This document shows, in pieces, positions 5,559 through 10,903 of a stretch of DNA of 48,230 nucleotides (position 1 is the first letter of the stretch; each line of letters starts with the position of its first letter). The stretch is from a virus. The DNA lies in IMG/VR virus record IMGVR_UViG_3300021962_000178, positions 1-48,230 of that record; one strand, given 5' to 3'. Under the pieces are notes generated by a model that saw only the letters and a program-made list of their open reading frames with translations, made no database searches and was not told the DNA's origin. Made by a program: the position numbers and the translations under genes.

Positions 5559-5921
5559 TTATAATTCTGCTTGAAACGAGCACTCGCCCGTGGTGATTAT
5601 TGTTTGTTCTATTTTCTTACCAAGTTCGTAGTCTGCATAGTCTTCTAGCATTGTTATTGGAAGACCTGCATCTTCTAGCATCTTATCATTGTACCCAAGG
5701 TTTTCAGCGAAGAACTTCTGAAATTTAGGTAGGTTGTCACCTAATTTCTTTTCAATAGCCATAAGTTCTTCTTGAACTTCCTCAAGGTGGTGCTCGTCAA
5801 ACATATACTCGATGTAGTTGACTTCACATTCTGCATCCTTGCTAAATCTAGATGGGGCGTCGCTAGATTGTACGCCAAACCAAAACTTGCCTTCGATGTC
5901 TCCGTAGTAATACCTTCCCAT
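5559..5921 (-). CDS. Conserved phage protein (MGRYYYGDIEGKFWF family)
   Basis: This 120-residue protein begins MGRYYYGDIEGKFWFGVQSS and ends CSFQAEL, with a central YIEYMFDEHHLEEV and YADYELGKKIEQ. The N-terminal MGRYYYGDIEGKF block, the FDExHL block and the SFxAEL end make a family that is common in Bacteroidota phages and has no known function. It is predicted soluble. The leader (ATG preceded by AACAACAATT) is shared with the two upstream genes. Confidence 0.8.
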   Translation of the reverse strand: MGRYYYGDIEGKFWFGVQSSDAPSRFSKDAECEVNYIEYMFDEHHLEEVQEELMAIEKKLGDNLPKFQKFFAENLGYNDKMLEDAGLPITMLEDYADYELGKKIEQTIITTGECSFQAEL

Positions 5922-9420: not shown

Positions 9421-9600
9421 TTAATTATTTATAGATTCATCAATGGCTGATGCTATACAGCTTATTACTAAGGATGCGATAACGAATGCCCCACGCCCAC
9501 CATTATCCCAATCTCTAGGGTTGGGTAGGAATGATATGAAGGCAATGATTAAGTACAAGAATATCGCCACTATGAGTAGCATTGCTATAAACTTATGCAT
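9421..9600 (-). CDS. Small two-helix membrane protein
   Basis: The 59-residue protein begins MHKFIAMLLIVAIFLYLIIA, a clear membrane helix. A polar loop (PNPRDWDNGGRG) and a second hydrophobic segment (AFVIASLVISCIASA) follow. It overlaps the upstream gene by 8 bases and ends 3 bases before the next start. Function is unknown. A holin-like role is conceivable from topology alone but has no other support. Confidence 0.5.
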   Translation of the reverse strand: MHKFIAMLLIVAIFLYLIIAFISFLPNPRDWDNGGRGAFVIASLVISCIASAIDESINN

Positions 9601-9805
9601 ACAACCCCCTTTCTACAGCCTGCATAGCTGTTTTAAGTTCAAACTCTCTGTACTTTGCCCATGCTTCAGCCAATCTTTCCTTAGGATCGATTGCTTCGGA
9701 CAGTTCATACCACTTGGAGATCAGGACTTCAGTGGTACTTTTCTTGGCTACCACCACCTTGCCACTATAGACAAGAGTTGATGACTTTTTGATTCTAGTT
9801 CTCAT
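9593..9805 (-). CDS. Small hypothetical protein
   Basis: The 70-residue protein begins MRTRIKKSSTLVYSGKVVVA and continues with a helical, charged half (SEAIDPKERLAEAWAKYREFEL). It is basic at the N-terminus, and no family is recognised. It is the first leftward gene after the predicted structured RNA, separated by about 47 bases. Confidence 0.5.
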   Translation of the reverse strand: MRTRIKKSSTLVYSGKVVVAKKSTTEVLISKWYELSEAIDPKERLAEAWAKYREFELKTAMQAVERGLYA

Positions 9806-9852
9806 TGTGTTTGTGTTCAGATGTACTGCTGTCCCCCAGGATGTGTGTGATT

Positions 9853-10286
9853 AAAAATGGGTATAGGGTGGGGAGTCGAACCCCACCTACGACCATCCTA
9901 TACTTTTAAAAGTTATTCACGCGTGATTATTCCATTATGCAGCAACATCCCGTTGCCCATAGTATTTTACTCCCTGCTTATTCAACATCCAACACCCACT
10001 TATAGTGTAGCATGGCTTTCGCCCAGGAGGGGTCTATTACAGCTATTTGATAGCATCAGCGAACCCGTACCCGCTTATATACGTTTACCACAATGCCTTA
10101 AAACGTACGAAAATTACATGCATTTTCCTTGCATCAACATAGTTAATGCCCACTTGGATTTGTATTGCCTACAATGATGCCAATCAATTACCCACAAAGG
10201 CGAATTAGTTGTTCTCAAAAATAGTTGAACGCAACCCACCTATGGCGTAGAATAATGGATGACAATGCACCATAAATAATACCCAA
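9853..10286 (-). ncRNA. Candidate structured noncoding RNA of about 430 nt
   Basis: No credible gene occupies this region on either strand. On the minus strand a TATCTTTG box (10299-10292) lies 6 bases before TGGGTAT (10285-10279), whose exact complement ATACCCA lies at 9864-9858, just before a T5 run. The 5' and 3' ends could therefore pair. Hairpins inside include ACGTTT/AAACGT (10081-10106), GCTAT/ATAGC (10042-10054), GGC-GAAA-GCC with a GNRA loop (10014-10023), CACT/AGTG (9997-10007) and GCAAC/GTTGC (9942-9956). The 3' end forms a tRNA-like minihelix. Phages of other lineages carry large ornate RNAs (GOLLD, ROOL) often near tRNAs. This could be of that kind or a new class. Confidence 0.5.
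9858..9903 (-). other. tRNA-like acceptor/T-arm minihelix ending in CCA
   Basis: On the minus strand GTATAGG (9903-9897) pairs perfectly with CCTATAC (9867-9861). Inside it GTGGGG and CCCCAC form a 6-bp stem closing the 7-base loop TTCGACT, the canonical tRNA T-loop sequence. CCA follows directly, then TTTTT. Only 10 bases fill the place of the D and anticodon arms, so this is not a normal tRNA. It may act as a processing or maturation signal, a terminator, or a host tRNA 3'-end remnant. Confidence 0.5.
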
Positions 10287-10291
10287 TATGT

Positions 10292-10299
10292 CAAAGATA
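10292..10299 (-). promoter_or_regulatory. Leftward -7 box TATCTTTG
   Basis: The minus strand reads TATCTTTG, matching TAnnTTTG and identical to the box before the spanin-like gene at 47950. It is placed so that transcription would start at about 10285-10288, where the self-complementary end of the candidate RNA begins. I see no TTTG at the usual -33 distance. Confidence 0.45.
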
Positions 10300-10401
10300 C
10301 TTTTCATCTCAGTTGAAGGACTCAGAAAGAGCCAAGGGCACAGAAAGCACCCCCCAACTTCAGCGATGATAGTTTTTGCCTAAAAAAAACTGAAAAATAA
10401 A

Positions 10402-10431
10402 AGAAAAAAAGAGGGGAGTTGAACCCCTCTT
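10402..10431 (-). terminator. Intrinsic terminator after the 10451-10903 gene
   Basis: On the minus strand AAGAGGGG pairs with CCCCTCTT (8 bp), with a TTCAACT loop, followed by a run of T residues. It lies about 20 bases past the stop of the Lys-rich protein gene. Its core GGGGTTCAACTCCCC differs by one base from the T-arm-like hairpin at 9871-9885. The segment 10300-10400 beyond it holds no gene that I can support. Confidence 0.8.
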
Positions 10432-10450
10432 ACCTTTCGGTAGTATAACC

Positions 10451-10903
10451 CTACTTTTTTGAAGCGTAACGCTTTACTAATTGTCCAATTAACCAAACAG
10501 AATATTTACCGGATTTTTCAAACTGCTTTTTTTCATAGTCTGTCCGGTAGTCTGCTAAATTCGGGAGCTGTGAAATTTCGTCTGCAGTTATGTTGTTGAA
10601 TTGGCTGAAAAAATTAACCGCATCCGCAAATTTTAACCAACGCTTTAGGCAATACATATAACCGCCTGCATCCGCTTTGTGCAGTTTGTTTATTGTCTGC
10701 AAACTGCGTTGAATCTGTCCCGCAGTTACTCCCTCTGCAAGGTAAATAACTACTTTTTTACTTTCTTTGTTTGCTTTGTCAATATTTGCGGCGGCATCCT
10801 TACCGCTTACCGCTTTAGTGCTAACTGCTTTAGCTTTTGTCTTACCGCTAACCGCTTTAGACTTGCTTTGTGCTTTTGCTGTGCTTTGTGTTTTTGTGCT
10901 CAT
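10451..10903 (-). CDS. Lys/Ala/Ser-rich basic protein of unknown function
   Basis: The 150-residue protein opens with a low-complexity basic tail of about 50 residues (MSTKTQSTAKAQSKSKAVSG and a second AVSGK repeat). A helical domain of about 100 residues follows (EGVTAGQIQRSLQTINKLHK, LKFADAVNFFSQFNNI) and the end is KRYASKK. The histone-tail-like composition suggests nucleic-acid binding, but no family is recognised. It is the first leftward gene from the large intergenic region and has its own strong terminator, so it is a single transcription unit. Its position beside the putative origin and RNA gene is notable. Confidence 0.65.
   Translation of the reverse strand: MSTKTQSTAKAQSKSKAVSGKTKAKAVSTKAVSGKDAAANIDKANKESKKVVIYLAEGVTAGQIQRSLQTINKLHKADAGGYMYCLKRWLKFADAVNFFSQFNNITADEISQLPNLADYRTDYEKKQFEKSGKYSVWLIGQLVKRYASKK

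Follow-up and report, generated by a model that had tools for sequence, protein, structure and literature searches.

Locus and coding status

In the window (the whole 48,230-nt stretch of viral DNA analysed here), two co-directional small genes (10451-10903 and 9593-9805) flank positions 9853-10286, whose minus strand carries the RNA described below. Among annotated records, the terminase was closest to those of Flavobacterium and Cellulophaga phages (27-28%), so a Bacteroidota host is likely, which agrees with the phage setting assumed in an earlier note on this DNA. The same note had seen no supported gene at 9853-10286. The relatives bear this out: the 106-aa open reading frame on the plus strand, antisense to the RNA, is frame-split and interrupted by stops in most of them, which rules out a protein-coding reading. 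A PDB search with the 150-aa protein of the upstream gene gave no match.

The minus-strand promoter box reported earlier was recovered as the promoter-like sequence TTTGACATATTG at 10295-10284. L089, L091, and L092 also have this sequence in front of the RNA, and in most relatives the upstream gene is preceded by a box resembling it. The RNA 5′ end proposed earlier overlaps this box.

Comparative structure of the large RNA

Blast and neighbour-gene searches found the large RNA conserved in six related phage contigs and in the distant L031. L089 showed 84% identity over 669 nt, and L090, L094, and L095 showed 82-90% over about 335 nt; the other relatives were L092 (on a contig shared with L072) and L091 (on a contig shared with L085). 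Two further DNA scans for relatives of the large RNA gave no additional ones.

The seven-sequence alignment gave a consensus structure of 71 pairs in 10 helices, with 96.7% of cells paired. A covariation check of the kind suggested earlier, run on this alignment, found compensatory (two-sided) changes in 22 of the 71 pairs. None of 500 shuffles matched 22 compensated pairs, and sliding the partners left 3-4, a comparison that somewhat favours the consensus because it was derived from the same alignment of seven sequences, a small sample. The single-sequence fold was modest (z = −1.5; 5 of 100 shuffles equally good), and the proposed structure rests on comparative evidence.

The conserved core, with all 10 consensus helices including the 3′ minihelix, occupies 9854-10158 on the minus strand. 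The variable 5′ part (10159-10283, minus strand) is 84% identical to L089 only and divergent in the other relatives. Two compensated pairs each were observed in helix 3 (GUACGUUU/AAACGUAU, 10079-10108) and helix 8 (hairpin UAUGGGCAACGGGAUGUUGCUGCAUA, 9936-9961), three in helix 5 (hairpin GCUAUCAAAUAGC, 10042-10054), and one in helix 7 (hairpin ACACUAUAAGUGGGUGU, 9992-10008), all on the minus strand. A 26-nt insertion in L089 and L090 falls inside one hairpin, a change that an RNA arm would tolerate. RNAalifold also predicted a long-range pairing, AAGUGG/CCUAUU, which is not claimed because it is nearly invariant. In L091, the large RNA lacks about 40 nt of the core, and the gap falls precisely between two GCGAAAGC-like stretches, which looks like a loss by recombination.

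From these comparisons, 9853-10286 is predicted to encode a minus-strand structured noncoding RNA with a core of about 300 nt and a total length of probably 400-450 nt.

The architecture first proposed for this RNA fared less well than its existence. The 7-bp pairing of the ends, TGGGTAT (UGGGUAU) with ATACCCA (AUACCCA), failed in L089, which keeps the 5′ TGGGTAT while its 3′ side reads CATTGCCTA. The 3′ strand of that claimed pairing instead pairs with a covarying local 5′ strand, forming a helix termed P1. Its variants are GTATAG/CTATAC in the window, L094, and L095; GCAATG/CATTGC in L089; GCATAG/CTATGC in L090, L091, and L092; and GCGTAG/CTACGC in L031. The GAAA hairpin GGGCGAAAGCC is disrupted to GGACGAAAGCC in L090 and L095, without covariation. 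The CCCAC copies are present as listed (by eye); their even spacing did not hold up, and several lie in poorly conserved sequence. Five T's do follow the 3′ element, but this run is not conserved and reads TTTC in L091 and L092. The tRNA-like 3′ element was correctly seen as a T-arm-like element on the minus strand, but its importance was missed: this module is local, recurs widely, and extends beyond large RNAs.

The minihelix of the window

The module at 9858-9903 (minus strand) is a tRNA-elbow-mimic minihelix composed of P1 (GTATAG/CTATAC), the linker GATGGTCGTA, and a T-stem (GGTGGGG/CCCCACC) closed by the T-loop TTCGACT, followed by CCA. The covariance model R1 matched 9860-9902 at 62.3 bits. 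The P1 of this copy has 6 bp (13 bp in total), and C rather than R follows after 12 bp; the copy reads C-CCA. The corresponding linker in the L091 large RNA is CGTGGGTATTATT.

A second T-loop element lies at 10404-10460 (minus strand), after the upstream 150-aa gene. It scored 22.3 bits with the Rfam tRNA model, below the cut-off of 29, and by the terminator scan it doubles as a terminator-like site. An A/U acceptor-like stem, a GG loop, a small GAAA hairpin, a T-arm, and a T run were observed in it. Its overall look is that of a tRNA-shaped terminator, and L089 keeps it; in L091 and L092 the T's follow a simpler T-loop hairpin. L090 and L094 carry a further minihelix at about 5706-5750, downstream from the large RNA by about 1 kb; its linker is ATTGGATGTA, and no counterpart of it was found in the window.

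The minihelix family

The general layout is a P1 of 5-6 bp, the linker GAUGGUCGNA, and a T-arm with the loop UUCGANU, giving 12-13 bp in all. A P1 of 5 bp and a T-stem of 7 bp stack to 12 bp, the length of the tRNA acceptor and T-stem. A Blastn search of phage sequences produced matches of 28-33 nt, most of which fell in gaps without annotation in mycobacterial, Gordonia, and Streptomyces phages; all of the matches share P1, the linker GATGGTCGNA, the T-arm, and P1′. Degenerate-pattern scans yielded 78 viral and 93 genome stretches. Among 190 distinct pattern hits, 170 had a P1 of at least 5 bp and a T-stem of at least 6 pairs, with 56 distinct P1 sequences; these roughly 170 copies span actinobacterial and Bacteroidota phages and mobile elements. 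The pattern fixed the linker and T-loop and left P1 and the middle of the T-stem free, so the pairings there are independent evidence. A diverse subset of 45 of these copies showed covariation at 10 of 12 pairs, with 99.8% of cells paired; the family score was 0.98, compared with 0.11-0.16 when slid, and some of the compensated P1/T-stem pairs are G-U. After P1, the family copies show R (89%), C (95%), and a third base that is mostly T or G. CCA is rarely encoded, and the full RCCA 3′ end is absent from the element.

A structure-only search of 877 kb (loop TTCRANY, T-stem of at least 6 bp, P1 of at least 5 bp, linker of 8-16 nt) gave 117 hits, against 0-1 for each of seven control loops. Many of these loci were fetched for holding the motif, so the 72 hits with the canonical linker were expected and the 45 with other linkers are new. 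In the latter, GG stands at the D-loop-like place in 39 (background 20%) and RC is kept after P1 in 34. The structure-only hits include a second subfamily with the linker ACTGGCAGACA and a 6-bp T-stem. Members of this subfamily, with that linker or a similar one, fill most intercistronic gaps of the early genes in Endor1 (L198) and Konstantine (L199).

The minihelix therefore appears to be a half-tRNA, an acceptor stem plus T-arm whose bulged linker would supply the two G's of the D-loop. It is a new, widespread RNA family, and the structural claims on both it and the large RNA are strong.

Genomic placement

In phages and mobile elements, the copies usually stand between early genes that run in the same direction. 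A same-strand stop codon was found within 20 nt upstream of 79 of the 154 copies, compared with 13 at random positions and 23 on the opposite strand; copies often begin 6-18 nt past the stop codon, usually ahead of another start. In Mycobacterium phage Konstantine, the minihelix occurs in 7 of the 10 gaps of at least 50 bp within the 38.2-45.8 kb stretch. Streptomyces phage Endor1 has it in 7 of 12 gaps between minus-strand genes, all at 44.1-48.2 kb, and once more ahead of the first gene. Neither stretch has a minihelix on the other strand. Gordonia phage Morgana shows the same intergenic arrangement. Copy number reaches about ten per phage, and gaps lacking the minihelix also occur between cistrons.

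Beyond the query genomes, the model matched 2 of 148 Actinomycetota and 0 of 197 Bacteroidota genomes, and a host housekeeping role is unlikely because such matches are so rare. The genes flanking several Streptomyces and Nonomuraea loci resemble those of integrative or conjugative elements (by eye); given this and their rarity, the bacterial copies were taken as a property of mobile elements. At L113, L134, and L153 (Nonomuraea, Streptomyces), the minihelices stand among genes for WhiB-like, NUDIX-like, and spread-type proteins (by eye), and their presence in these integrative/conjugative-like elements indicates that the motif extends beyond phages. Pattern hits in Spirochaetales, Planctomycetes, Acidobacteria, Chloroflexi, and Emticicia genomes were treated as chance because they were unscored by the covariance model.

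Two side observations concern annotation. Journey13 gp74 (L191, KY798216.1 45396-45438) is annotated with a start that precedes a minihelix and overlaps gp75; the better start looks to be an ATG past the minihelix, which has a ribosome-binding site. Halorubrum and Haloarcula viruses (haloarchaeal tailed viruses) carry unannotated T-arm-like matches, for example MZ334519.1 59582-59603.

Database searches

Rfam has no family for the large RNA and none for the minihelix. ARAGORN returned nothing in the window, nor did Rfam at gathering score, and at E ≤ 10 Rfam gave sub-threshold matches only. The earlier note had proposed a large structured RNA that it could match to neither GOLLD nor ROOL, and so possibly a new class. 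Rfam models, run as it had advised, gave no GOLLD (RF01998) or ROOL (RF03087) match at E ≤ 10 in window positions 9600-10600 or in L089 3900-4750; together with the covariation, this upholds its view. GOLLD, ROOL, and all other Rfam families were rejected for lack of model matches. The tmRNA model reached 12.8 bits in the window, on 15 T-arm nucleotides only (cut-off 47); a tmRNA was rejected on this T-arm-only signal, the lack of an ARAGORN call, and the end pairing refuted by L089. ARAGORN found no tRNA in the window or the related loci, and the minihelix has no anticodon arm. The large RNA would thus represent a previously undescribed class with a conserved, covarying core.

Proposed function

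RNase P cleaves acceptor/T-arm model RNAs (PMC11143913); the elbow is its measuring point, and it can apparently dispense with the D-loop (PMC4919913). The elbow seen by RNase P, RNase Z, and the ribosome is formed by stacking of the tRNA D-loop residues G18 and G19 with the T-loop, and in some eukaryotic lncRNAs the ends mature through tRNA mimicry, with RNase P recruited (PMC4810234). The continuous acceptor and T-stem stack of about 12 bp with a T-loop that characterizes AT1-like minimal RNase P substrates was found in about 170 copies, and the elbow mimicry of viral tRNA-like structures (T-loop plus D-loop GG) is also present at the level of sequence.

The most economical reading, we infer, is that the minihelix is a natural minimal site at which RNase P, or possibly RNase Z, divides phage transcripts between genes. 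RNase P, as the most likely enzyme, would clamp the elbow and cut the polycistronic transcript at the 5′ side of P1, and RNase Z would perhaps act at the 3′ side. In most phages the cut would separate early mRNAs; in the window phage it would create the 3′ end of the large RNA and part this RNA from the downstream mRNA. Counting against this reading are the incomplete RCCA, the 6-bp P1 and the C after 12 bp in the window copy, and the intercistronic gaps that have no minihelix. We assign a probability of roughly 55% to this main reading, a large RNA ending in a tRNA-elbow mimic that belongs to a new minihelix family and would be cut by tRNA-processing enzymes, likely RNase P. The broader proposal, that half-tRNA punctuation cut by RNase P or another elbow enzyme is in use across many unrelated DNA phages and mobile elements and that one lineage added a large RNA to it, falls a little short of even odds.

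The minihelix may instead remain uncut and act as a dock or decoy for another elbow-binding factor, altering translation or stability of the flanking genes; we consider this rather unlikely, at about one chance in a few. Candidate binders are the ribosome, a T-loop modification enzyme, the CCA-adding enzyme, and a phage or host regulator. The elbow is a recognition site for many factors (PMC4810234), and the frequent start 6-18 nt past a stop codon would place the element near a terminating ribosome. The linker is strict as well: the canonical GATGGTCGNA is stricter than RNase P would need, though the search pattern itself fixed the linker. This hints at a more specific partner than RNase P and, with the incomplete RCCA, leaves room for another elbow-binding factor. 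However, the whole acceptor-length stack and the RC are conserved, which a factor binding the bare loop would not need.

An RNA-stability or termination hairpin that merely resembles a T-arm is improbable. The T run after the window copy and the terminator-like T-loop element at 10404-10460 fit such a hairpin, but most minihelix copies have no T run, and the conserved loop, linker GG, and 12-bp length are features that a terminator does not need.

We give still less weight to an action at the DNA level, as a repeated regulator site or as an attachment-site remnant of a tRNA gene. Actinobacteriophages do contain repeated intergenic motifs whose function is unknown or repressor-related (PMC3203893, PMC7302621, PMC3029335), and tRNA or tmRNA 3′ ends occur at the attP of some phages (PMC3029335). 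A duplex site would conserve its sequence, whereas the changes in P1 and the T-stem are compensatory and include some G-U pairs. An attP is single and copies only the 3′ end of the gene; here P1 covaries locally and a phage may hold about ten copies, which rules out the attP/tRNA remnant.

That the large RNA is a GOLLD, ROOL, or tmRNA member too diverged for the models is equally hard to credit: its size, phage setting, and tRNA-like 3′ end would suit one, and tRNAs are often found close to GOLLD and ROOL (PMC12286853), but neither is matched at E ≤ 10 in the window or L089, and the tmRNA signal is T-arm only, with no pairing to the 5′ end.

Comparison with known systems

The minihelix shares the helical stack, the T-loop, and the expected single 5′ site with AT1-type RNase P substrates (acceptor stem, T-stem, and T-loop); those are laboratory constructs with a 3′ RCCA, whereas the minihelix is natural, has a GG linker, and lacks the full RCCA. 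tRNA mimicry is known from plant RNA viruses and a few eukaryotic lncRNAs. MALAT1/mascRNA represents the lncRNA type with a tRNA-mimicking 3′ end, in which a large noncoding RNA is likewise followed by a tRNA-like module, possibly forming the 3′ end. In contrast to that type, the minihelix occurs in bacterial viruses, measures about 43 nt, and has no anticodon arm, and its cleavage is putative. Viral tRNA-like structures of the TYMV type also imitate the tRNA elbow in a virus RNA; the minihelix differs in belonging to DNA phages, in standing between genes rather than at the genome end, and in having no pseudoknotted acceptor. Because it has no CCA end, charging is unlikely. In mitochondrial transcripts, tRNAs between genes serve as processing sites (tRNA punctuation); the intergenic, tRNA-shaped placement is alike, but minihelices are half-tRNAs without an anticodon.

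GOLLD and ROOL are likewise large phage RNAs whose function is unknown and which often have tRNAs nearby, whereas the window RNA is smaller, matches neither model, and carries a tRNA mimic instead of a tRNA. SAS/ESAS, stoperators, and other actinobacteriophage repeats are repeated, oriented, and intergenic like the minihelix, but the published sequences compared differ from it and none is called an RNA fold; the comparison covered published sequences, so that the Microbacterium cluster EI 30-bp repeat, given in a figure only, falls outside it. The open-access literature held no description of the motif or of half-tRNA mimics repeated between DNA-phage genes, which is weak evidence of novelty.

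The minihelix is a variant of tRNA-like RNA elements, and in one phage lineage a new class of large RNA is attached to it. If confirmed, the proposed cleavage would show how phages define transcript ends using host enzymes and would account for unannotated gaps in the well-studied phages Konstantine, Endor1, and Morgana. The broader punctuation proposal, if true, would amount to an unrecognised RNA-processing code of phages.
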